From a virus: a DNA stretch of 64,000 nt. The position numbers were made by a program, and so were the translations under genes. The stretch lies in IMG/VR virus record IMGVR_UViG_3300008108_000087, positions 1 to 64,000 of that record, one strand, 5' to 3'. The stretch's first letter is position 1. Each line of letters opens with the position of its first letter. Of the stretch, positions 8,095-43,300 are shown piece by piece. Below the pieces are notes generated by a model, which had not been told where the DNA came from, did no database searches, and saw only the letters and a program-made list of their open reading frames with translations.

Positions 8095-8120
8095 ATTATT
8101 TTTTTTTTAATCTGAATTAT

Positions 8121-13420: not shown

Positions 13421-13918
13421 TTAATTATTTTTTCTATTATTCATTATTTCTATTACAACATCATCAAAGCTGTGTTTGAATTTCTCAAGCTTACTGATTA
13501 TTTCTACAGTATCTTGTTCTATTTTTAACATATTCGCATTGATATATAAACCCCCATTGTTACCAGCAATAAAGACAAATCCAAGATCTTCCTCGATGCT
13601 ACCATCTAATCTAACATTGTCCACATAGATATTAAAACCTTCCTCAAAGTTGGCAAGTTCGCTAACCTGAGATTTAAAGTTTTGAATCAACTGATTCAAT
13701 GAATTTTTCTCTTCGTCTGATAAGGACAGGTCTTCTTGGTCTGTGCTGTGTATCTTTACTTCAACATTATCGTTTAAAACCAGATTGAACATTTCCTGGC
13801 TTTCTTCTTCTTTTAGGACTTTCTTTGATTGTACGTTTTCATTAAGATTTCTCATAGTATTGAGCATCTTTTTTGTAAAATCATATCCTAGGTTCTGCTT
13901 CTGTGACATTTTCTTCAA
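13421..13918 (-). CDS. Hypothetical protein
   Basis: A 165-residue acidic protein: a helical N-terminus ([23 protein letters not shown]) and a mixed alpha/beta remainder (IYVDNVRLDGSIEEDLGFVFIAG). No family recognised. The ATG overlaps the end of the amidase-like gene by 38 nt. A TATTTATA occurs at 13952-13959, 33 nt upstream, but inside the amidase-like coding region. Position suggests a virion-associated role. Confidence 0.65.
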   Translation of the reverse strand: MKKMSQKQNLGYDFTKKMLNTMRNLNENVQSKKVLKEEESQEMFNLVLNDNVEVKIHSTDQEDLSLSDEEKNSLNQLIQNFKSQVSELANFEEGFNIYVDNVRLDGSIEEDLGFVFIAGNNGGLYINANMLKIEQDTVEIISKLEKFKHSFDDVVIEIMNNRKNN

Positions 13919-14504
13919 AAATATTAAAATTAAATGATGGGTTTATATCTGTATAAATATCGGAGAAATTTGATTTACTGACTATCCCATTGAAGTTTTT
14001 AGCATTCTCGAAATATCCTGAAGATGGTACTATTTGATAGGGTATATCATAGTGTGCGCATAATAGTAACGATAGGTTAGATAAGGCTGTTAATTGCTCC
14101 TTTGTATACACATCCCAGTAAAAATACCCTCTCCATCCTCTAAGATGAGGCTCACCTCTATAAACATCGTTAATCCAGTTGCTATAGGTACCCATAATAG
14201 TATTCCTATTTAACCAGCCTAGATTCTCAATAGCGATCTTAATTTGCTTTTTGTCTATGGAAGCATCACCAAATGTTTTGGTCATGTAATCGGGCTCTAT
14301 TAGCTTATAAACCTTACCCGTCTTTGTGATACAGAAATGGGGAATATCTTCATATTTACCATTTCTTCTATATTTGAGCATTTTAATGAAATCATCAAAT
14401 CTTCTTTTGGTATCATATAGAAGGATTTGTGTTTTCTTATATTTTCTTTTTTTGTAATTTAATTCGTTAAGATTAAAAACTTCTGCGTCTAGAATTTCTA
14501 ACAT
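13881..14504 (-). CDS. Amidase_2-fold protein lacking zinc ligands
   Basis: A 207-residue protein that aligns by eye with T7 lysozyme-type N-acetylmuramoyl-L-alanine amidases: [17 protein letters not shown] matches the YHFIIKRDGTV strand pair, [10 protein letters not shown] matches the SIGVCLVGG strand, [20 protein letters not shown] matches the long helix, and INPSFNF matches the CPSFD end motif. The three T7 zinc ligands (His17, His122, Cys130) fall on Tyr, Val/Ser and Asn here, and the catalytic Tyr46 falls on Pro. So it is probably an inactive fold kept for binding or structure. The start overlaps the end of the upstream Thr-Pro-rich frame by 32 nt. Confidence 0.6.
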
Positions 14505-14796
14505 TTCTCTGGAATGTTTTATTTCCGATTATTGGTTCTTCGGGTTCAGGTTCAATAATACCATCTTCCCAATATAAATCATCTGGTGTTTCGCTTGGTG
14601 TTGGCGTCGGTTCCAGAGTCTCTGTAGGGGTTTCGGTTGCCGTTGGTGTCGGTGTTTCTGTAAAAGTATGTGTTGGGGTTGGTGTCTCCGTAACTGTGAA
14701 TGTTGGTGTCGCAGTTGGGGTTGGACTAGGTGTTGGTGTTGGTACTATTTCTTGAATGTACAATGGTGTTTCTGTAGCGGAAGGTGTCGTTATGAT
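14473..14796 (-). CDS. Thr-Pro-rich -1-frame extension of the membrane protein gene
   Basis: This frame encodes [17 protein letters not shown], then about 50 residues of T/P/E/S repeats ([16 protein letters not shown]) and an acidic-then-basic tail ([14 protein letters not shown], ending RRRSF). It has no ATG; the only in-frame alternative start is a TTG at 14763. Its upper end meets the A10 tract at the end of the 14790-16037 gene, in the -1 frame relative to that gene. The simplest reading is that it is expressed as a frameshift or slippage extension, giving a product of about 521 residues. Thr-Pro linkers of this kind are used in several other genes of this phage. Confidence 0.6.
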
Positions 14797-16037
14797 TTTT
14801 TTTTTAAATCATCATCCTTTTCTTGGATATGATCTCTCCAGAAACTATCATTGTTTATTTCTTGAAATTCTTCCTCTACGGGTATTGAATCATCAATATT
14901 ATATTTTGGAGCCTCTTCTGGAACAGGTATCGGTTCCGGTATAAATTCTTCAAAATCACCAGAATCTTGCACACTTTCTTCAGAAACAGAATTGTTGAAA
15001 TTTAGTTCCTCTTCTTCTTGAGATGGAGTGTATTCTACAGGCGCTACTTCATGAACTTGCATTTCGTCATCAACATAGAAATTTCTTTCGATAGGCTCTT
15101 CTTCATTTACTGTATCAAATTTTCTTTCCCACTCATCCATAAACATTTCTCTAACCTCTTCATCAGATAACGCTGGTGTAATTGGTTCGCTATTAAATGG
15201 TAATTCATCGTCGCCAATTAATTCTTCATTTGTTAACCCTCCCCAATCTTCATCATATAAACCTAATTCTTGATCTTTTTGCATGATCTCAGAAATAAGC
15301 TCTGCTTGCTTTTCTTTAGTGAGTTCTTCTTTTACTTCCGGCTGTTCATCAGAAGCTATTGTTGCTTTCTCCATATACTTTTTTGCAGCCTCTTTCAAAA
15401 CTTCATTAGGTTCTGGTGGGTTAGACAAGTATCTTTCAAGTATCTCTAAATCTCTTTCTGTTAGTTTAAGTCTTAGAGATTCGTTAGCCAAATCACTATT
15501 AACAATATTGTTCTGTATTTTTTCATCTACACTTTCATTAGTGCTTTCTTTTAATCTATCTTCTTCTGTAAATTTAACCAACATATGTAAGAAAGATAAA
15601 GATATTATTGGTAACATACCACCAGAAAAAAGAGCTAGAAATCTTTTATGACCAACAAAATCTGTTGGTTCAACACCCATGAATTCTAATAAAGGGGCAA
15701 CAAGATCTACCCAGTCTTTAAAAGATTGTGAATTGATATCAATAAATGAATAAGCAAAAAATATGTTACCAATAAATTGAACTAGTGTAACGATAGCGAA
15801 TGGGAAATATACCTTTTTACCCATGTCTGCCGATATTGCAGCTAATGCAGACAACGCAGCAATTTCAATACCTATTGAAAGATATACGGCCCAGCTAACT
15901 GGATTTGATATACCATACCATTTTGTAACGTGTGATATTGATACAATTGCTACAGTAATGATCGGTACTAAAAACGCAGCAATGATTAGCGTTTTATAAT
16001 TTTTATTTATCCAATGTTTCATTTTAAAATTTCGCAA
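14790..16037 (-). CDS. Four-helix membrane protein with long acidic tail
   Basis: A 415-residue protein. Four hydrophobic helices lie at about residues 15-36, 46-70, 77-98 and 128-152 (for example [20 protein letters not shown]). The remaining 250 residues are acidic and probably disordered, with many Glu/Pro stretches ([13 protein letters not shown]). The start may be Met1 (overlapping the upstream gene by 14 nt) or Met6 (MKHWINK, at 16022). The C-terminus in this frame is DDDLKKKS, encoded over an A10 run 3 nt before the stop, which makes a -1 shift into the Thr-Pro-rich frame likely. Function unknown; possibly a membrane-anchored effector or superinfection/lysis protein. Confidence 0.7.
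14796..14808 (-). other. A10 slippery tract for -1 frameshift or transcriptional slippage
   Basis: On the coding strand the sequence is TTT followed by ten A, then TCATAA. In the zero frame it reads TTA AAA AAA AAA TCA TAA. It contains the A AAA AAA heptamer used in -1 ribosomal frameshifting, and runs of nine or more A are also known to cause polymerase slippage. Either a -1 shift or one extra A leads into the Thr-Pro-rich frame. Confidence 0.55.
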
Positions 16038-16317
16038 GCTCTTTTTCTAATTCTACAACTTCTTGGTCAATTTTTGTTTGACGTTGAACATCTAGAATTT
16101 TTCGGTCTGTTGCTTGGATCATTCTTTTTTCAGATTTCAGACCTTCGATTTGTAAAACAATATTTAATTCTTTTTTTGTATAAGTAGAATCTCTCATTGC
16201 TTTAATCTCATTTTTAATGTTTTTTATTTCTCTACTATCGCTACAACTTTTAAAAAAAGTTAGTAACACAACAGTAAACACAACAACAGTAAAATTATTC
16301 TCAATAAACTTTTTCAT
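16024..16317 (-). CDS. Small membrane-anchored coiled-coil protein
   Basis: A 97-residue protein with one N-terminal transmembrane helix (FTVVVFTVVLLTFF) followed by SCSDS and a long helical, probably coiled-coil region (residues about 30-97). Topology would place the coiled coil outside the cytoplasm. It is 3 nt downstream of the sigma gene and overlaps the next gene by 14 nt. It resembles Rz-type proteins only in general topology, so the function is open. Confidence 0.65.
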   Translation of the reverse strand: MKKFIENNFTVVVFTVVLLTFFKSCSDSREIKNIKNEIKAMRDSTYTKKELNIVLQIEGLKSEKRMIQATDRKILDVQRQTKIDQEVVELEKELAKF

Positions 16318-16320
16318 ATA

Positions 16321-17130
16321 TTATAAATATTTTAAGAGTGAAAAGCTCTCGTTTCTGAGCTTCTTTATTGCTTTATCCTTTAATTGTCTAATTCTTTCTT
16401 TGGTGCATCCAAATTCTTCACCAAGGTCATCAAGGTTCTTTTCTGTACCAGTTAATCCAAAATAACCCTCTATGATGGCGCTTTCTCTTTCATCTAAAAA
16501 AGACATCATGTATTTGATTCTGTGTTTTAAATCTTCAGTACTATTAGCTAAATCTTCAGGAGATACTGCATTTGGATTTGCAATAATTTCAAGAAGAGTG
16601 TCCCCTTCTTCATTTATTTCTCTAAATAAATCTATGGTTGTTGGTATTCCTGTTAATGGGATCTCACTGTATTCAACATAAAAACTATCTTCTTGTGAAG
16701 CTTCTGCTTTTTTTAATTTTTGCGCTTCTTGGATAACGTTAGATGGAACTCTAATCGTTCTTGCATATTCATTTAATGCGTAAAGAATTTGTTGCTTAAT
16801 CCACCACACAGCATAGGAAATAAATTTGAATCCTGATGATATATCATAACGCTCAATTGCTTTTATCAAACCTATATTTCCTTCCGATATTAAATCAGAA
16901 ACATCAAGTCCTTGATTTTGGTATCCTTTAGCAATCGATATAACGAATCTAAGATTACCCTTAACAACTTCGTCAATTAGTTTTTGACGTTCTGATTTTG
17001 TTAAAATTTCATCTTTTAACTGCGAAAAGATTTCGTTTTCTCTTTCATGAGAAATAACTGGAATTTTTTTGAGATCCTTGATGTAGTAGTTGATCTCTTC
17101 TGTTTTGATGATTGGAGCGGTCTTCTTCAT
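16321..17130 (-). CDS. RNA polymerase sigma-70 family factor
   Basis: A 269-residue sigma factor with region 1.2 (residues about 12-40), region 2 (about 48-120, with DVSDLISEGNIGLIKAIERYD and the promoter-binding FKFISYAVWWIKQQI), region 3 (about 122-195) and region 4 with its helix-turn-helix (about 210-262, GCTKERIRQLKDKAIKKLRN). Region 1.1 is absent, as in Bacteroidota primary sigma factors of about 287 residues, which it resembles closely. It should direct host RNA polymerase to a phage promoter class. The repeated TATTTATA motif is an obvious candidate target, but this link is inference. Confidence 0.93.
   Translation of the reverse strand: MKKTAPIIKTEEINYYIKDLKKIPVISHERENEIFSQLKDEILTKSERQKLIDEVVKGNLRFVISIAKGYQNQGLDVSDLISEGNIGLIKAIERYDISSGFKFISYAVWWIKQQILYALNEYARTIRVPSNVIQEAQKLKKAEASQEDSFYVEYSEIPLTGIPTTIDLFREINEEGDTLLEIIANPNAVSPEDLANSTEDLKHRIKYMMSFLDERESAIIEGYFGLTGTEKNLDDLGEEFGCTKERIRQLKDKAIKKLRNESFSLLKYL
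16322..16329 (-). promoter_or_regulatory. TATTTATA motif at the end of the sigma gene
   Basis: A coding-strand copy overlapping the last codons and stop of the sigma gene, ending 4 nt before the ATG at 16317. Confidence 0.3.
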
Positions 17131-26417: not shown

Positions 26418-26454
26418 ATTTTAAATATAAGTAAAAAAAACCGTAAAAAAAAAT

Positions 26455-29532: not shown

Positions 29533-30753
29533 TTATGCTTCACTAGGCCCACCAGGTCCACCTGAACAACTATCATTACCTACTGATATAATACCACCAT
29601 TTGAATCTACTCTTATAAATTTATATGTACCTCCATCATATAATAAATCACCATTAGGATTTGTTGTTGTTGGGGTATTTTGCGCACTTTGGTTTTCTGA
29701 TTCAGTTATATATGCCATTCTTGTTACATTACCTAATGACCAAGAACCCGCAACAGGTGTTGTTAAACCATAATCACTATAGATTGTTGTAGTACCTGGT
29801 GTTAAAATTGCGTCAGTTGTATAGAATGGTGAGTTAATTAGATAACCTTGTCCACCTGAACCAAAATTATTACAATAAGTTGTTGATATATTAGTGTCCA
29901 TGACTTCTTCTGCTCTGTAGTATACATAAACTGTTGTTGGTGTTACTGTTGGTGTTAACGTCGGAACACCAAGACATTGTATACTTACCTCCCAATAGTC
30001 ATTTACGTCATTTGGCGCAGCTAACATTGGTGCTGTTAATACATCTATGTAATATGTTTGGGTGTTATCATATGTTATTGTTAATGTTATTGGGCCAGTT
30101 TGAGTTGGGTACCAATAATCATTTGAATCATAACCAGATGAATTACCAAACCATCCTGTACTTTCAATAATTGTTAAATCTGTTCTAATTGAAATATTGT
30201 TTGGTCTATCGTTTGCTGTACACGTAAAATTAATTAGCGATCCGTTAGCCACCCCTGTAAAATCTAGTTGACGATCAGGGTAATTATAAATCGTTGGCCC
30301 AGTATATTCACCTGTTACAGTAGAACTACATCCTGGCAAGCTAGTAGGGGTTATTGTTGTTGTTGGTGTAATTGTTGGTGTAACGGTAGTAGTAGTTGTT
30401 GTTGGTGTAATTGTTGGATCAACGGTAGTTGGTGTGGTAGTTGTTGTTGGTGTTATTGTTGGGGTAACAGTGGTAGAAGTTGTTGTTGGTGTTGGTGTTA
30501 CACCTGGTATTCCAGTTATTGAAATACATTGTGTTGTACCAGAACAATCTCCGCCGTCCACTTTAACAAATAAACTAACCGTTCCATCAGGTATTGATGA
30601 AATTGTTTTTGGAAAACTAGATACCGCTTGTGATGTTACTAGACTTGTACAGCCACTTCCACAAGACGCACCTGTACATCCTGATATTGAAACGGTTTGT
30701 CCTGTGATTCCGTTTCCTACTGTTCCTAAATTTACTGAAGCGTTAAATGCCAT
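29533..30753 (-). CDS. Modular tail adhesin with Thr-Pro linker
   Basis: A 406-residue protein. Residues 1 to about 85 form a small cysteine-containing beta domain (ISGCTGASCGSGC). Residues about 88-145 are a Thr/Pro linker (TPTITPTTTTTPTT). A distal Ig-like beta domain follows (FTGVANGSLINFTC and onwards), then a short second TPT linker and a Tyr/Ser/Gly-rich C-terminal domain. The head-linker-module plan is shared by four neighbouring genes. It is probably displayed on the tail for host binding. A TATTTATA motif ends only 4 nt before the ATG. Confidence 0.65.
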   Translation of the reverse strand: MAFNASVNLGTVGNGITGQTVSISGCTGASCGSGCTSLVTSQAVSSFPKTISSIPDGTVSLFVKVDGGDCSGTTQCISITGIPGVTPTPTTTSTTVTPTITPTTTTTPTTVDPTITPTTTTTTVTPTITPTTTITPTSLPGCSSTVTGEYTGPTIYNYPDRQLDFTGVANGSLINFTCTANDRPNNISIRTDLTIIESTGWFGNSSGYDSNDYWYPTQTGPITLTITYDNTQTYYIDVLTAPMLAAPNDVNDYWEVSIQCLGVPTLTPTVTPTTVYVYYRAEEVMDTNISTTYCNNFGSGGQGYLINSPFYTTDAILTPGTTTIYSDYGLTTPVAGSWSLGNVTRMAYITESENQSAQNTPTTTNPNGDLLYDGGTYKFIRVDSNGGIISVGNDSCSGGPGGPSEA

Positions 30754-35300: not shown

Positions 35301-37345
35301 GTAAAGGTGTCGCCAGCATCTGGATCAGATGAACTAAATGTCCCTATTGTTGTACCAGTTGGTACATTTTCTGAAATTGAAACTGAACTTAGAGAAATAT
35401 TTGTTGGTGCTTCGTTAACATTGGTTACTGAGATTGCAAATACTTGATCAAATGTTAAACCACCGGCATCTGTTGATCTAATCTTTATTGAATATGAAGA
35501 TTTTGTTTCTAAATCAAATATTGCCGCAGATTTTAAAGATGCTCCAGTAATAGTAAAACTAGAGTTATCTGGATAATTTGCTAAATCAACTAAAGTGTAT
35601 GTAAATGTGTCACCAGCATCTGGATCTGTTGTTGATAGTGTTCCAATTGTTGTACCGGTTGCAGAATTTTCTGCTATTGTATTTGATGATAATGAAATAG
35701 CTGTTGGTGTTTCATTAGCATTTGTTATCGATATTGTTAATGTTTTATCAAATGTTAATCCACCTGAATCGGTTGATCGGACTCTTATTGTATAAGAACT
35801 TTTTGTTTCAAAATTAAATACTGCTGCAGATTTTAGTGTTATACCACTAATACTAAAACTAGAGTTATCTGGATAATTTGCTAAATCAACTAAACTGTAT
35901 GTAAATGTACCGCCGTCTGGGTCAGTTGTTGAAAATGTTCCAATGGTTGTTCCTGTTGCCACATTTTCCTCAATTGATAATGAACTTAAACCAATATTTG
36001 TTGGTGCTTCATTAACATTACTAACATAGATATATAATGTACCATCATAAGTTAACCCACCTTGATCTGTTACTCTAATTTTAATTAAATATTCATTTTT
36101 TACCTCATAATTAAAGACAGCAGCTGATCTGAGTGTTGATCCACTTATGATAAAGCTGTTGTTGTCAGGATAAGTTATAGTATCTCTAAGTGCATAAGTA
36201 AATGTATTTCCAGAATCATTGTCTAATCCACTTAAAATACCAACAGTTGTTCCTGTTGCTGAATTTTCTGGGATAGTATCATTAGAAATACTAAAACCAT
36301 ATGGTGCTTCATTAACATTTGTTACATAAGCTGTTAACACACCTTCAAATGTTAAAGAATTAGAATCTGTTGCTCGAACTTTAATTGGATATGAATTTTG
36401 GATTTCATAATCAAAAATTTCAGCAGACTTTAAAACCCCTCCACTAGTTAATGTGAATTTATTATTATTTGGATAAGATAATGAATCTATAAATTCGTAT
36501 GTAAATGTATCACCACTATCAGGATCAAGCGCTGTTATTGTACCAACAGTTGTTCCTGTGGGTGAATTTTCCGGAATACTTCCGTTTAAATTTAAACCAT
36601 ATGGCGCTTCATTAATATTTGTTACATTAATTGTAAACGCTTTATCATAAAATAATCCACCGGCATCGGTTGATTTTATGATTATACTGTATGATGATTT
36701 ATTCTCGTAATCAAAAATTGCGGATGTTCTTAAATCAGAACCATCTATGTTAAAAGATGCCGCATCCCCAGTTGATTGTATGGAATAAGTATGTGTGTCG
36801 CCTAAATCAACATCATTAGTACTTAAAGTTCCAACAATTGTGTTTATTGGGCTGTTTTCATTTACTGTATTATTGCTTAAATTAATATCTACTGGTGCAG
36901 AATTTGTTGGGGTCGGGGTTGATGTAGATGTTGGCGTTGGTGTCGCTATAACCGCAATAGTGTCTATTAAAAATTCACAATTAGGGGTATAGGTTGATGT
37001 TGGTGTAAGAGTAATAGTTGGAGTGTTGGTTGGTGTTTCGGTTGGTGTTGCTGTAAGTGTTGGTGTTGAAGTTGGTGTGGCAGTTGGTGTTGGTGTTGGT
37101 AAAATTAAATCGTCACCAATTAAACAATATGGATCTGTGTTATATAAGATTATTTTATATGCATTATCAGGTACAGAAACTAACACACCGTTTATATCTG
37201 TTAAATCTGAATATGTTATTCCTGTTGCGGGTAATGACGTTGAAACCACCGTAGCAATATTCAACGGATCAACAACATCATAATAAATGTTGTATGGCCC
37301 TGGTGCCGTTCCTGAAGATATTGTTACTGTGAATTGTTTTGCCAT
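32366..37345 (-). CDS. Giant tail adhesin with cadherin-like and SprB repeats
   Basis: A 1659-residue protein. Order: a head domain (about 1-85, FTVTISSGTAPGPYNIYYD), a Thr-Pro linker with one CEFLID cassette (about 85-150), six cadherin-like repeats with the T(I/V)xENSxTGTTVGT start and NVNEAP end (about 150-745), then ten SprB-like repeats of about 70-80 residues (TCNGGSNGVITV...AGSYILYAKD), and a C-terminal domain paralogous to the 31752-32312 protein. SprB repeats are known from the Flavobacterium gliding adhesin. Probably a long, extended host-binding fibre. There is no signal peptide, as expected for a virion protein assembled in the cytoplasm. Confidence 0.8.
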   Translation of the reverse strand: MAKQFTVTISSGTAPGPYNIYYDVVDPLNIATVVSTSLPATGITYSDLTDINGVLVSVPDNAYKIILYNTDPYCLIGDDLILPTPTPTATPTSTPTLTATPTETPTNTPTITLTPTSTYTPNCEFLIDTIAVIATPTPTSTSTPTPTNSAPVDINLSNNTVNENSPINTIVGTLSTNDVDLGDTHTYSIQSTGDAASFNIDGSDLRTSAIFDYENKSSYSIIIKSTDAGGLFYDKAFTINVTNINEAPYGLNLNGSIPENSPTGTTVGTITALDPDSGDTFTYEFIDSLSYPNNNKFTLTSGGVLKSAEIFDYEIQNSYPIKVRATDSNSLTFEGVLTAYVTNVNEAPYGFSISNDTIPENSATGTTVGILSGLDNDSGNTFTYALRDTITYPDNNSFIISGSTLRSAAVFNYEVKNEYLIKIRVTDQGGLTYDGTLYIYVSNVNEAPTNIGLSSLSIEENVATGTTIGTFSTTDPDGGTFTYSLVDLANYPDNSSFSISGITLKSAAVFNFETKSSYTIRVRSTDSGGLTFDKTLTISITNANETPTAISLSSNTIAENSATGTTIGTLSTTDPDAGDTFTYTLVDLANYPDNSSFTITGASLKSAAIFDLETKSSYSIKIRSTDAGGLTFDQVFAISVTNVNEAPTNISLSSVSISENVPTGTTIGTFSSSDPDAGDTFTYALVDTSSYPGNSSFSISGTTLRSAAVFDFETQSSYTIRVRATDAGGLTYDKSIVISITNVTLTVGVSTTTNVTCNGGSNGVITVSGVTGGTASYTYSKDGTNYQASNVFSGLTAGSYILYAKDSYGEVGNSSVVTVTEPTIVSSTLSRTNPTCIGSTDGSITVTSASGGTGSGYTYSKDGSTYQTGTTFSNLGNGTYTIYVKDSAGCVRTNTIGLDRTQVTATVSQTNVTCNGGSDGSIVVSDLSGGQGGPYSTKLNSGGTYQVLTTSRTYSSLSAGSYTIYVKDSAGCENTYAVTITQPTQVTVSSSGLQYPTCWNSTNAGFTLSASGGSGGGYEYSKDNGSTWQSSGVFTNLSSGVYTVKSKDGNGCQSSSATVSVTKSAPTPVVNQTNAYCNGGTGSLNVVGASGGNNGPYTVSLNDITYYTVQKIFSDLSPGNYTLYIKDATNCKASYTYVITEPSALTVSVNSATNPTCWDGADGSITLSASGGTGTKTYSKDGTNYQASATFSSLGTGTYVLYAKDANNCVAATTQTLSKSAPNATISIFNPTCVGGTGSISVNSGTGGNGGTYQSKLNAGGTYGNLPQAYASLGDGSYTIYVKDGSNCVQTYTTSITVPSAVSFYTNVVYPTCYDSTNGSITVIASGGAGSYQYSINGGSTWQSSNSFTGLYSATYTVRVKDGNGCESSNQNTNLSKAAPSATITHSNISCYGGSNGSITITNPTSGNSGQLTVSLTGDFSDYYLFNLVNGVPTATFNNLTSGSYTVYLKDYNQCEATYGVYISEPSQQYATINNAVNPGFYSPSAGSLDISSSGGVWPKTYRLYKDTSSPYTTCGGDIVAEYYSVASSNPTRSITGLTSGGYCLEVTDTNGCITTSGLTVLTDGDAPGYCYTMTYVTIPNDLYVRYRDVTDTVQTVLIQNLATMDNGNGTYTVGICVKPGSSYSTPVCVQGGVEVTCFDSWTQGGICESDGVCLIGSV
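36895..37110 (-). repeat. Thr-Pro linker minisatellite with one CEFLID cassette
   Basis: On the plus strand this reads as repeated GTTGGTGT-type hexamer blocks; on the coding strand it encodes TPTPTxTP repeats around one NCEFLIDTIAVIATPTPT cassette. Confidence 0.8.
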
Positions 37346-37364
37346 TATTTTATATAATTATTCA

Positions 37365-39731
37365 TTAACTTTGATTACACGGGTTTAAATTATATCCCAA
37401 TGTGTTTAGTGCTGTTATTATTTGATCCGCATAATATTGAGCGGTTGAACCCGCTGTGACATTTGAAATGTAGGTTATTTCACTCTTATCAGATAGACCG
37501 TTTGTTCCTGAGTATGCACCGGTTCCATCTTTAACCGCCACCAAGAATTGTCTAAATCCATCATATGAATTTGGACCCGTATTAACTCTAAACACAATAC
37601 CTCTATAATAACTGCTATTAGGAACATTGTCAAGCGTTGATCTTAAGCCGCTTATATCAGTATCATACGTTCCTGTTCTGACACTGGTATTAAATGAGCT
37701 ACCATCAGCAGCGTATGGAGAAGATTCGTCTTGGAATACTAAGTTTATAACTTTGGTTATACCAGCTGTTGTTCCTGTTGTGTTCAATACGTACATTGTT
37801 CTTTCAGTACCACCAGATTTACTTGAGAAGTTGCTTACCGTTACGTTTTGATCATATGTGTTATAATCATTATTGTAGAATTGAACGAGACAATCTCTTA
37901 AAATAGTATCTCTCATACTTTGTAATGGTGATAGTGTTGAGTTCATTGAGCCGCTATCGTCAAACCAAATATTAATTTCAGTGTTTTCATCAACAACTAA
38001 TGGGGTACCTAATGCAGCCTCAAACACACAATCAGGTGTGTATGTTGATGTTGGTGTTGCGGTTGGTGTTTCAGTTACAGTTGGTGTTGGTGTTTCAGTT
38101 GATGTAGATGTTGGTGTCTCAGTCAACGTTGGTGTTGGTGTCGATGTAGGTGTGGGTGTAGTAATTAAAGCCACTGTGTCAATTACAAACTCACAATTTG
38201 GTGTATAAGTAATTGTAGGTGTTTCTGTTACTGTAGGTGTTTCAGTAGATGTTACGGTTGGTGTTACTGTTGGTGTTGATGTTGGGGTAGGCGTACTAAT
38301 TACTGCCACTGTATCAATTATAAATTCACAGTTTGGTGTATATGTTTCAGTTGGTGTAATTGTAATTGTTGGGGTATCTGTTGCTGTTGGTGTCTCAGTT
38401 GCTGTTGGGGTTGGGGTTACTGTTGGTGTTGCAGTTGATGTTGGTGTTGGGGTATATATTGTACCACAATCTACGTACTCAATCTTTTTACATACAGGAT
38501 TTTCTGGATCAGTGGTGTCTAAAGTATAACCAGCTGGACAGCTATAGTTTGTGCAGAATCCCTCACCCGCCAAAGGTCCACCAGGTAAGTAATCACCTGT
38601 TGAGAACATTATATTTAATTCACTTGCATTGGTTACCCCAGTCAATGTTGCTAGTGTATCGTCATATACCTCAGCAGCAAACGATCCCACACTACTTCTA
38701 TTCCAGTTTTCAATTTCAACAATATTTGGACCTGCTTCTAGTGTTACTGGATATATGTGGTAGAATCTAAAATTATCTACTGGTGAGTTATCTGCTTGAT
38801 TTATTAATGTTACAGAATTTATTTTAACTGTAATATCATTATCACCAGCCACGCCGATATAATATGTTTTTGTTGTAGTTAAATTGAATGTTGCACAGAA
38901 ACTAACGTAATCAGGATAATTTGGATTTGGCCATGTCGTGTTACCATCAACCCAAACGTTAATTTGATTCATTCTACCAGCCCAGAATGATTCGTTAGGT
39001 GTTGTATCTGGGCTACCATATGCCGTTGTATAACCAGAATATGCTAAGTTACCACTTATCGAATTTCCAACAGTATTGTAGTCATTTTCATTGTATATCT
39101 TAACACCATACATTCCGTATGCTGAGTTACTACCACCATCACCAACTAACAAGTTTTCAATTGATGTTGGGGTTGATGTTAATACTCTATAACATGCACC
39201 CCCATCATTTGTGGCTGTAAATCCTTCAGGACAATCACATGTTGGTGTTATAGTAGGTGTTTCGGTTACTGTTGAAGTAGAGGTAGGTGTTGGTGTTGCA
39301 ACAATAGCATCAATATTAATAATAAACTCACAACTATCTGATGATGTTGTTGTTGGTGTTTCAGTAGATGTTACAGTTGGCGTTAAAGTTGGTGTTGGTG
39401 TTGCTATAACCGCGTTGATATCTATTACAAACTCGCAACTATCCGATGATGTTGTTGTTGGTGTTTCAGTTGGTGTAATTGTTATCGTCGGGGTTGAGGT
39501 TGGTGTTGGGGTTACTCCTGGAACTATTTCTAGGTTACAGACAAACCCTTCAAGTTCATTTTTAAAATTAAAATCGTATGTACCGTAGTAATAATCTGAG
39601 GTCCAAAAATAAGGTATAAGTACGTTGGTTCCGATGGTAACAGCTGTTCCTCCGCTATATGGATGAAAAACAACATCAGCATAATAACCGTTGTATAAAC
39701 CAGATGCACTATATAATCTTATTGTTGCCAT
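37365..39731 (-). CDS. Tail adhesin with CEFVID cassettes and a vWA-like domain
   Basis: A 788-residue protein. Order: a head domain (about 1-75), a Thr-Pro region with two CEF(V/I)I cassettes (about 75-165), a Cys-rich turn (CDCPEGFTATND), a beta domain with lectin/PA14-like features (about 170-400: WVDGNTTWPNPNYPD, KTYYIGVAGDND), a second Thr-Pro region with two more cassettes (about 425-560), and a C-terminal von Willebrand A-like domain (about 575-788) whose MIDAS motif is WFDDSGSMNS. vWA domains bind ligands through a metal ion, so this end is a likely receptor-binding tip. Confidence 0.75.
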   Translation of the reverse strand: MATIRLYSASGLYNGYYADVVFHPYSGGTAVTIGTNVLIPYFWTSDYYYGTYDFNFKNELEGFVCNLEIVPGVTPTPTSTPTITITPTETPTTTSSDSCEFVIDINAVIATPTPTLTPTVTSTETPTTTSSDSCEFIINIDAIVATPTPTSTSTVTETPTITPTCDCPEGFTATNDGGACYRVLTSTPTSIENLLVGDGGSNSAYGMYGVKIYNENDYNTVGNSISGNLAYSGYTTAYGSPDTTPNESFWAGRMNQINVWVDGNTTWPNPNYPDYVSFCATFNLTTTKTYYIGVAGDNDITVKINSVTLINQADNSPVDNFRFYHIYPVTLEAGPNIVEIENWNRSSVGSFAAEVYDDTLATLTGVTNASELNIMFSTGDYLPGGPLAGEGFCTNYSCPAGYTLDTTDPENPVCKKIEYVDCGTIYTPTPTSTATPTVTPTPTATETPTATDTPTITITPTETYTPNCEFIIDTVAVISTPTPTSTPTVTPTVTSTETPTVTETPTITYTPNCEFVIDTVALITTPTPTSTPTPTLTETPTSTSTETPTPTVTETPTATPTSTYTPDCVFEAALGTPLVVDENTEINIWFDDSGSMNSTLSPLQSMRDTILRDCLVQFYNNDYNTYDQNVTVSNFSSKSGGTERTMYVLNTTGTTAGITKVINLVFQDESSPYAADGSSFNTSVRTGTYDTDISGLRSTLDNVPNSSYYRGIVFRVNTGPNSYDGFRQFLVAVKDGTGAYSGTNGLSDKSEITYISNVTAGSTAQYYADQIITALNTLGYNLNPCNQS
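38025..38470 (-). repeat. Thr-Pro minisatellite with two CEF(V/I)ID cassettes
   Basis: Contains [18 protein letters not shown] and [18 protein letters not shown] plus a diverged DCVFEAALGTP, each flanked by TPT repeats. The DNA is a GTTGGTGT-type minisatellite on the plus strand. Confidence 0.85.
39240..39540 (-). repeat. Thr-Pro minisatellite with two CEF(V/I)I cassettes
   Basis: Contains [18 protein letters not shown] and SCEFIINIDAIVATPTPT, each preceded by ETPTTTSSD. These are closest to the [18 protein letters not shown] cassette of the 40348-45402 gene. Confidence 0.85.
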
Positions 39732-40347: not shown

Positions 40348-43300
40348 TTATTCTTCTATTAATATGTCAGTATTATTTTCATCCACAATAAAACTTGCAC
40401 CACTTTCAAGAATTATCCCTTGAGAACTTTCAACAATTTCATAAGTCATATCACAAGATCCCTCTGTAAATGTAATTGTTGGTGTCGAAGTTATTGTTGG
40501 CGTTGTGGTAGAGGTTGGTGTAGGTGTTGATATAACTGAATTAATATCTATTACAAATTCACAACTATCTGATGATGTTGTTGTTGGTGTTTCAGTTATA
40601 GTTGGTGTAGCTGTTTCTGTTGGTGTTGGTGTTGCAATAATTGCAATTGTATCAATTATAAAATCACAATTAGATGTAAAAGTTGATGTTGGCGTTATAG
40701 TAACACTTGGTGTCGGTGTTGCAATTGTTGCGACTGTATCAATAACAAATTCACAATTTGGTGTGTATGTCGATGTCGGCGTTATAGTGACGCTCGGTGT
40801 TGGGGTTGCAATTGTTGCAACTGTATCAATAACAAATTCACAATTTGGTGTTGATGTTGATGTCGGTGTTATAGTGATACTTGGTGTCGGAGTGGGAATT
40901 ACAGCAACTGTATCAATTACAAATTCACAATTTGGTGTTGATGTTGAAGTTGTTGTTGGTGTAGGTGTTAGCGTCACAACATTTGTATCAATTACAAATT
41001 CACAATTTGGTGTTGTTGTTACTGTTGGTGTACTAGTTGGCGTCTCTGTTACAGTAGGCGTACCAGTGTTTGTTGATGTATTTGTAGGTGTACTAGTTGG
41101 TGTCTCAGTCAACGTTGGTGTTGGTGTCGATGTAGGTGTATTTGTAGCGGTTGGTGTGCTAGTTATGGTAGGTGTACTGGTAGATGTATTTGTTGGTGTA
41201 GGTGTAGATGTTGGACTTGGGGTTACTATTGGATATGTGCTACCACAAGGTACGGCCGGGGTTATAACACCACATTCAGTTGTATAATTTCTTACAGGAT
41301 CTTCAATTTCAGTTTTACAACATTGATTATCAATATAATATTGACTTAAGCTCATATTAAGTCTATTAAACTTAGTATATGAGTGTTGTATTAATACTTG
41401 TGTTCCATCATTACCATTAAACAATATTAGGTTTTGAGGTTGTGTTCCTGTTATATTAATGTTATAATAAAGATTATTTTCACAGTAATTTAAATTAACT
41501 GAAATAACCTCTAATAATTCACCTTTTTCTGTAATTAAAAAATCACCAGTATCATAATAATCTGATGGATAATAACAACAAGGCTCCTCCGGTGTTTCTG
41601 GTTTTAATTGCAAAAACTCTGGAGATCTAGAATCAAAAAAGTAACCATCTCGTTTAGATACCCTATATGTTGCTTCATCAACCTCTTTATTTGTGTAAAC
41701 ACGTAGTTTTGTTGTTGGTAAAACTTCAATAACAACCTGTTGACCGTTTGAGGTCATACCTATTATTTCACTTTTCTTTACAGATCCTAAACAATCAATA
41801 TCGCTAATTGTATGCGTTGAATAATCATATGAAAAAGAATAATCATTGTTTTCACTAGCATATTCAAACATGCTTGATGAAAGTGTGGTGCATGATAAGT
41901 ATGTTGCACCTAATATGACATTTCCATTAACTAAATCTTTAACATCTTTCTTAACAAGAGTTCCAGCAGCTAAATAACTAGTAATATTTGCTGGTGTTGT
42001 AGATGAATTAATTGTAGCACCACTAACAACAATAACTTTAGTATTGTGTTTTAAACCATAATTGTATGTGTTTCTATATTGTACTTTTGGTACTAATGTA
42101 TAGCCAGTGTTAACAACTAACGGTAAATCAGGCACTTCAGATGGGTATTCTACATATCTTAATGCTAGTCCTTCTATTTTTACTTTTTTATCACAGTTTG
42201 CTGCATCAGTAAAAATTAAATCAATAACCTCATCTTCTCTTACATTACTAAGTTTGAACTTACAATTTTCTCCAACAATTTGGAAGAAACTTGTATCTGT
42301 ATAAGTTGGGTGGTATCCTGTACTGATGTTATTTCCTGGTGTACAATTTCTTTGAACATATACACCCCATCCACTATCGTTACCAGATTGAACAGTAACA
42401 CCTGTTAAGCTAACAATAACATCTGTTGCAACTTTACAAGTTGGATAACCAGAATAAACATCACAAGACGCATCAAATGATAAATCTAAATGACATTTTG
42501 GCTCAGTATATTTGTAATCAACATCAAAATAAAAATCTAAATTATCTTTTACTAAACATTCTCCAGAAGAGTTTGTGTGTGCAATAAATTTAACTTTTTC
42601 AACACCATTATTATCTGTGAAAAATTCATAAGATATTAATTGTGTTTTTCCTGACAATATAGCATTTCCAGGAACATATGAAGGGGTATTGAATGCACTA
42701 TATTGTGTTTCTGTTTGATTAATTTGTTCAACAAGAGATGCTATGGCGTTTTTCCAAGCGGCTTTTATTGTTGTTAAATTTAAATTAATCCAATTTTTAT
42801 ATTCACAAATAAGTGGTATTTTAGATGTTGAGGAAGTTAGTACACTACAACTTTCCACAGCAGTAAAACCAGTACCAAATAAGGTACTGCCGGTTAAAAC
42901 TACTTGTGTCGTTCCACTATAATCAGTACCGTCAATATCAATATGTAAAGTAAATGTTACACCACTAAATTCAATTAAACCTCTTAGATTATCTGGATCT
43001 CCAATTATTGTTTCAAGATCTTCTTCAATTACTGTTTCAAATTCTGGATATAAATTTTCTACAATCTCTAATGGTTTACATGGTTTTCTATATGAAAACT
43101 TGGGTCTACCAAAAACATTGTTTTCAATTAAATTACCCCCCATCCATAATGTTGTTGATGGTATAATTTGTTCTAAAACATTTGACCAATATGGGCTCAT
43201 CTGATTAACAAAATCAGATGTTGATATTATATCATAAGTTGTATAACCAGATGCTACTAATTGATTTATATAATCCTGATAAACATCCTCTAAAGCAATA

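Follow-up and report, generated by a model that had tools for sequence, protein, structure and literature searches.

In the IS630-type transposase gene of Roseiflexus, slippage is enabled by a stem loop that lies 5' adjacent to the motif (Penno et al. 2015, via PMC5009743; this and the other sources cited here are drawn on in excerpt). In Shigella, slippage in spa13 adds a 112-amino-acid extension that overlaps spa32 and affects spa32 expression (PMC5009743). The RNA:DNA hybrid measures 9-10 bp (Atkins et al., PMC5009743), and insertions of a single base prevail at the homopolymers of E. coli and Buchnera, becoming more frequent as runs lengthen (Traverse and Ochman, PMC5574713). Baranov et al. 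(PMC1088944) state that where homologues share a nine-base run of the same length, slippage there is very likely purposeful. From phage infection, a candidate for slippage has been reported in a gene of the host (PMC10986495); among the matches listed from the open-licence literature, none described programmed transcriptional slippage in a gene of a tailed phage.

The locus described here lies in a viral stretch of 64,000 nucleotides (the window; positions 1 to 64,000 of IMG/VR record IMGVR_UViG_3300008108_000087), in which a membrane-protein gene stops shortly after an A10 run and the -1 frame stays open beyond it. With a probability of about 0.7, we read the A9-A11 site of this gene and of its relatives in a family of tailed phages as programmed transcriptional slippage, giving a short and a long form of the membrane protein. 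By comparison of the sequences, the frame transition, the run length and, at most sites, an adjacent hairpin are conserved, and the tail is selected as a pooled set. That the polymerase rather than the ribosome slips, that the tail is coupled to the next gene, and any role at the membrane, we infer.

Sampling of relatives

Viral-contig searches gave 170, 234 and 157 relatives, of which the best 80 were kept in each case; the family counts therefore describe the best-scoring part. Left out before grouping were a locus that starts inside the gene (L027), one that matches only query residues 278-309 (L028), and L029-L034, which belong to the window's own record and a distant phage. Grouping covered 261 loci, window included, or 260 after dropping L232, whose core reads SISHVS. 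These reduce to 87 distinct genes, window included. A single sequence, including its run, is common to as many as 12 contigs; such groups are identical by construction, and no length variant of them turned up.

Among named phages there was one match, LR756500, set aside as distant (identity 31.8%, covering 37% of the query; E 4e-13), and no A-run of at least 8 was found in its gene or the 600 nt beyond. In one scan of bacterial and archaeal genomes, 81 stretches fitted a pattern and none was confirmed as a relative.

Results

Table 1. Features of the proposed slip-site locus and its neighbors in the window
Feature	Position	Strand	Remarks
Downstream gene, Amidase_2-fold protein	13881..14504	-	207 aa; Pfam PF01510, E 1e-6
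Overlap of tail end and downstream start	14473..14504	-	32 nt; downstream ATG at 14504; proposed translational coupling
-1-frame tail	14473..14796	-	107 codons + stop (TAA at 14473)
0-frame membrane-protein gene	14790..16022	-	ATG 16022 to TAA 14790; short form 410 aa
0-frame stop TAA	14790..14792	-	final base 6 nt past A10 run
A10 slippage run	14805-14796	-	A9-A11 across the 43 split genes
RNA hairpin	14807..14834	-	28 nt, -7.3 kcal/mol, ends 1 nt before A-run; proposed nascent-RNA slippage stimulator
Upstream neighbor, 97-aa protein	16024..16317	-	N-terminal hydrophobic segment, then a Cys
Upstream neighbor, phage RNA polymerase sigma factor	16321..17130	-	phrog_351, E 5e-53

The membrane-protein gene (Table 1) ends with GAT GAT GAT TTA AAA AAA AAA TCA TAA, and the short form has the C-terminus KKKS. 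The A10 run, the early stop and an open -1 frame of 107 codons without ATG were all present as the sequence-only reading had stated. That reading had placed the gene at 14790-16037; its stop stands, and its start moves, as 16037 is an upstream TTG and the likely start is the ATG of Table 1. Counted from this ATG, the long form has 409 + 107 = 516 amino acids in place of the approximately 521 residues first proposed. The tail in the window is laid out as a Thr-Pro-rich part, an acidic LYWE box and a basic end, and the +1 frame shuts after 23 codons.

By eye, the conserved core of the membrane protein (~150 amino acids) contains four long hydrophobic helices; the C-terminal part is acidic. An AlphaFold model of the first 216 residues of the protein reached a mean pLDDT of 78. 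As the core fold found no significant match in the PDB (best E 3.1), a holin function or any other role would be a guess.

Runs of A9 on either strand are rarer in the window than expected by chance, with five overlapping matches at three places vs a mean of 15.7 (sd 5.1) in 100 shuffles. The two other runs of at least nine A lie at 8099-8108 (-) and 26445-26453 (+). Neither lies in an open frame of more than 39 codons or has a strong adjacent hairpin (none; -2.6 kcal/mol), and an inverted repeat follows the run at 26445-26453.

The gene is embedded in a recurring order of sigma factor, 97-aa protein, four-helix protein, amidase-fold protein and a further ORF. Neighbors were sought by tblastn with the window proteins at 42 split, 4 in-frame and 40 short loci (kinds defined below). 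The sigma factor was found at 41, 4 and 39 of these, the 97-aa protein at 28, 3 and 40, and the amidase-fold protein at 41, 4 and 39, respectively. The virus record of the window (81,528 bases) carries baseplate-wedge, DnaB-like helicase, SbcC-like and ribonucleotide reductase genes; its DnaB-like helicase matches 64 phage records from many hosts, all at <60% identity.

The 87 distinct genes are of three kinds. Split genes (43), defined by an A-run of at least 9 within 24 nt of the stop, carry an A9-A11 run, followed at 3-15 nt by the end of a 0-frame stop, and have a -1 tail. In-frame genes (four; L041, L044, L050, and L069) carry, in the 0 frame, a tail with a C-terminus of this kind, and seven A9-A10 runs remain ahead of the tail. 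L041, L044, and L050 each have two A9-A10 runs in the C-terminal part, without hairpins of -4 kcal/mol or better. Short genes (40, L212 included) encode 223-304 amino acids in a single frame, with the site absent; an A-run of at least 9 occurs in three of them (L242, L255, and L021). Each short gene overlaps the start of the same downstream gene or adjoins it, with an 8-nt overlap in 34 of 40 (e.g., L108:4710). This overlap in the sister lineage suggests that overlapping the downstream gene may be older than the slip site. In a tree of the core, with bootstrap not fully settled, the short kind was set apart from all others (100/99) and the four in-frame genes were scattered among the split ones. 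The best tree contains four changes between split and in-frame, and well-supported branches force at least two.

Among the split genes, the run was A9 in two, A10 in 33 and A11 in eight; on the 64 split contigs the corresponding numbers were 2, 54, and 8. The conservation of the run in related phages, which had been proposed as a check, is thus borne out by A9-A11 in 43 of the 87 distinct genes. No split gene with a run below 9 is left in the remainder of the 87 best-scoring genes, the other 44 being in-frame or short. Similarly, none of the 87 lacks the run and keeps both frames apart with good start sites, the arrangement named at the outset as speaking against a slip. Three AAA codons alone are not rare, because AAA accounts for 798 of the 969 upstream lysine codons in these genes; in the sequences compared, it is the repeated position, length and stop after the run that are unusual, not the AAA codons as such.

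The longer continuation was the -1 frame in all 43 split genes from the best-scoring relatives. Tail length was 33-152 codons (median 81), with 18 codons in one gene cut by a contig end, and four tails reached only 33-34 codons; the +1 frame spanned 3-39 codons (median 23). Together with the four relatives that have the tail in frame, these continuations uphold a programmed -1 transition at the A-run that adds a tail. Pooled over 22 related pairs, the pN/pS of the tail from run to overlap was 0.40, which points to purifying selection. The tail frame had the lowest pN/pS of the three frames in 15 of the 22 pairs and not in seven; these seven comprised 19-61 compared codons, one with a ratio >1 and one without synonymous changes.

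By pattern match, the commonest shared feature of the tails is a basic C-terminal motif (37/43); an acidic YWE/YLE box occurs in 26/43, and 10/43 are Thr-Pro-rich. Thr-Pro richness is local, and the Thr-Pro linker put forward in the sequence-only reading is not supported as a feature general to the family. Its description of tail addition as "regulated" is not supported as written. GTTGGT-type tandem repeats occur elsewhere in the window at 30356-30498, 37029-37100, 38044-38453, 39265-39470, and 40514-40947. The repeat DNA of the tail is matched at 70-75% identity by 36982-37101 and places within 38062-38450, a likeness that perhaps reflects recombination or shared low-complexity expansion.

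The hairpin 5' of the run was first noticed in an exploratory fold scan and then tested with three controls. In the scan, the upstream 45 nt gave a mean z of -1.77 (15/42 under -2), the downstream 70 nt -0.47 (5/42) and a control region -0.96 (6/42). Across 50 runs (43 split and seven in-frame), the hairpin ending ≤4 nt from the run averaged -4.7 kcal/mol vs -1.3 in synonymous shuffles (Wilcoxon p 2e-8, related sequences counted). For 29 representative sites, <75% identical in the hairpin stretch, the mean was -5.13 vs -0.61 at up to 60 sampled positions per gene; a hairpin of ≤-4 was present in 22 of 29 vs 5.2% of control positions, with gaps of 0-3 nt to the run. When 5' parts were exchanged between representatives, the mean weakened to -1.59, 17.2% still reached ≤-4, and 0 of 5000 permutations were as low as the native mean. 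In the window, the native hairpin was matched by none of 40 synonymous shuffles and at none of up to 60 sampled positions in the same gene.

Of all 43 split sites, 33 reach -4; their hairpins comprise 25 different sequences, and 15 of these directly abut the run. Several pair types are seen at each of six stem levels, and the hairpin is preserved through changes in both arms (22/29 diverged sites). A hairpin of -4 or better was absent at 10 of 43 split sites, at seven of 29 representatives (four with none at all) and at all seven runs of the in-frame genes. Other distinct A-runs of at least 9 in the same loci had an adjacent hairpin in 1 of 43 cases. This was the A9 run of L182, 3008 nt after the gene start, where a hairpin of -4.4 lies within a 209-codon open frame; it is possibly a second slip site.

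The downstream gene matched PF01510 in all 34 aligned members; the model of the protein had a pLDDT of 87, and the best Foldseek hit was the amidase 6ssc (E 7e-6). Read by eye, one alignment column holds His in 11 of the 12 sister sequences and in none of the 22 long-tail ones; in two of the latter a His occupies the next column. The column in question may be part of the catalytic zinc-binding His motif of Amidase_2. The amidase-fold protein seems to have lost this His, yet it adjoins the membrane gene in both lineages. Because the His of the sister lineage is missing, an endolysin or lysis label was considered and withheld.

Measured from the downstream ATG, the ends of all 42 complete tails fall in a range from 21 nt ahead of it to 38 nt beyond it, and 37 of the tails overlap it by 32-38 nt; L071, cut by a contig end, is outside this count. 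From the end of the 0-frame stop to the downstream start, 102-417 nt intervene (median 207, 42 genes; 285 in the window), so that ribosomes on unslipped messages would halt short of that start. Those on slipped messages would finish at the start of the amidase-fold gene or next to it and so reach it. From this arrangement of the sequences, slippage probably determines how much of each membrane-protein form is made relative to the other, and also how much of the downstream protein.

Discussion

On an A-run of this length, the 9-10 bp RNA:DNA hybrid of the polymerase would be wholly rA:dT, and the hairpin just upstream would fold in the exit channel. Realignment of the hybrid would then let a fraction of the messages gain one A (or lose two). 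Unslipped messages would yield the short membrane protein, and messages with one more A would lead into the -1-frame tail, yielding the 516-aa form with its acidic stretch and basic C-terminus. The -1 frame of 43/43 genes is exactly what the insertion of one A produces, and a hairpin abutting a run of hybrid length argues for polymerase slippage rather than ribosomal frameshifting.

The site is laid out like an intrinsic terminator in which A replaces U. At roughly even odds, the site may be a phage terminator-like element, in which a flush hairpin and a hybrid-length A-run replacing the U-run make the polymerase stutter rather than stop, acting as a fixed dosage splitter for the C-terminus of the membrane protein and the translation of the amidase-fold protein.

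Several observations weigh against polymerase slippage. The hairpin-driven case described in PMC5009743 (excerpt) deletes one base, and one insertion or two deletions are needed here. Ten of the 43 split sites and all seven in-frame runs fall below the -4 strength. Runs of such length can also shift ribosomes to -1. Furthermore, the tail frame is not the one with the lowest pN/pS in 7/22 pairs, and four tails have just 33-34 codons.

Programmed -1 ribosomal frameshifting, in which tandem lysyl-tRNAs slip on A AAA AAA(A/G/T/C), a fraction of the ribosomes enters the tail and the hairpin acts in some other way, is the alternative to be considered first, and we judge it unlikely. The slippery heptamer A AAA AAA, part of the sequence-only reading, is indeed there: an X XXY YYZ heptamer lies in the 0 frame at 43/43 sites, which follows from A9-A11 and the phase, and the direction is -1 throughout. 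E. coli dnaX offers a precedent (touched on in PMC5009743). Shine-Dalgarno-like strings (AGGA, GGAG, GAGG, or AGGG) occur ≤18 nt upstream of 22/43 sites and 19/29 representatives, counts given without a background rate, and they are missing at 21/43. A ribosomal mechanism, however, is made less likely by the run being held at 9-11, with none at 7 or 8 among the 87 best-scoring genes, while a heptamer needs only 7. Downstream of the run, no 3' stimulator stood out above the control (mean z -0.47 vs -0.96), in a test that covered stem-loops. With the run in the P and A sites, a hairpin 0-3 nt away would sit inside the ribosome. Both the run length and the position of the hairpin are left unexplained by ribosomal frameshifting.

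Phase variation at the DNA level, whereby mutation of the run length switches the tail on or off between phage genomes, is very improbable. Homopolymers this long are likely hypermutable (PMC1088944, excerpt), and four relatives have the tail in frame. The off-frame is, however, the same in 43/43 split genes. Distinct genes that are alike to 93% or more over a 360-nt core form 16 pairs, and run length is identical within each; where clades differ in length (A9, A11), the flanking bases offset the difference and preserve the frame relation.

There is similarly little chance that the tail is a separate gene translated alone by reinitiation or from an internal start. The window has one TTG 11 codons into the tail, and reinitiation near the stop is possible. 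Against this, six of the 43 tails lack ATG, GTG and TTG, 32 lack ATG, and no start position is shared; the four relatives are fused in one frame, and both the A-run and the hairpin would be left unexplained.

Decay or an assembly error, that is, a homopolymer indel breaking a once continuous gene, could draw on the existence of fused forms and is rejected with near certainty, as is the sequencing error raised at the outset, given a site common to 43 distinct genes on 64 contigs and, for decay and assembly error, a pooled tail pN/pS of 0.40.

If transcriptional slippage is the mechanism, its direction (insertion) differs from that of the hairpin-stimulated slippage in PMC5009743 (excerpt). With run, hairpin and frame readable in dozens of natural variants, the family can serve to test the effect of a hairpin beside an A-run on RNA polymerase. 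For annotation, a gene caller confined to one frame would list the short form and overlook the C-terminus.

Comparison with known systems

The site shares with the Roseiflexus transposase gene a stem loop in the nascent RNA directly 5' of the motif and a transition that yields the longer product, which is functional in Roseiflexus. In contrast, T5C5 loses one C there, whereas a pure A9-A11 run gains one A or loses two here, and the gene is that of a phage membrane protein instead of a transposase. By analogy, the site may work like the Roseiflexus type with another outcome, and we do not file it as a member.

Like spa13/spa32 of Shigella, the phage locus would gain a tail of ~110 amino acids by slippage, the end of which overlaps the start of the next gene, and a coupling as in spa13-spa32 is likely, we infer from this analogy. 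The Shigella genes belong to type III secretion, and no flush hairpin is mentioned for them in the excerpt. As in dnaX of Thermus thermophilus (nine T, PMC5009743), homopolymer slippage would provide two C-terminal forms. The Thermus thermophilus gene is like the four in-frame relatives, in which a slip would give a shorter product; unlike there, the unslipped message specifies the short form in the 43 split genes. IS elements with slippage at 9A/9T (PMC1088944) have a similarly conserved run of ~9 A, used there for orfA-orfB fusion; they encode transposases, and no conserved adjacent hairpin is mentioned in the excerpt.

The frameshifts of E. coli dnaX and of phage tail-assembly chaperones are likewise -1, and they share lysine-type codons (dnaX) or the phage setting (chaperone) with this site. 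Those sites have a 7-nt heptamer with other stimulators, and not A9-A11 with a flush 5' hairpin. Judged by its sequence features, the site is best read as a phage-borne variant of programmed transcriptional slippage.
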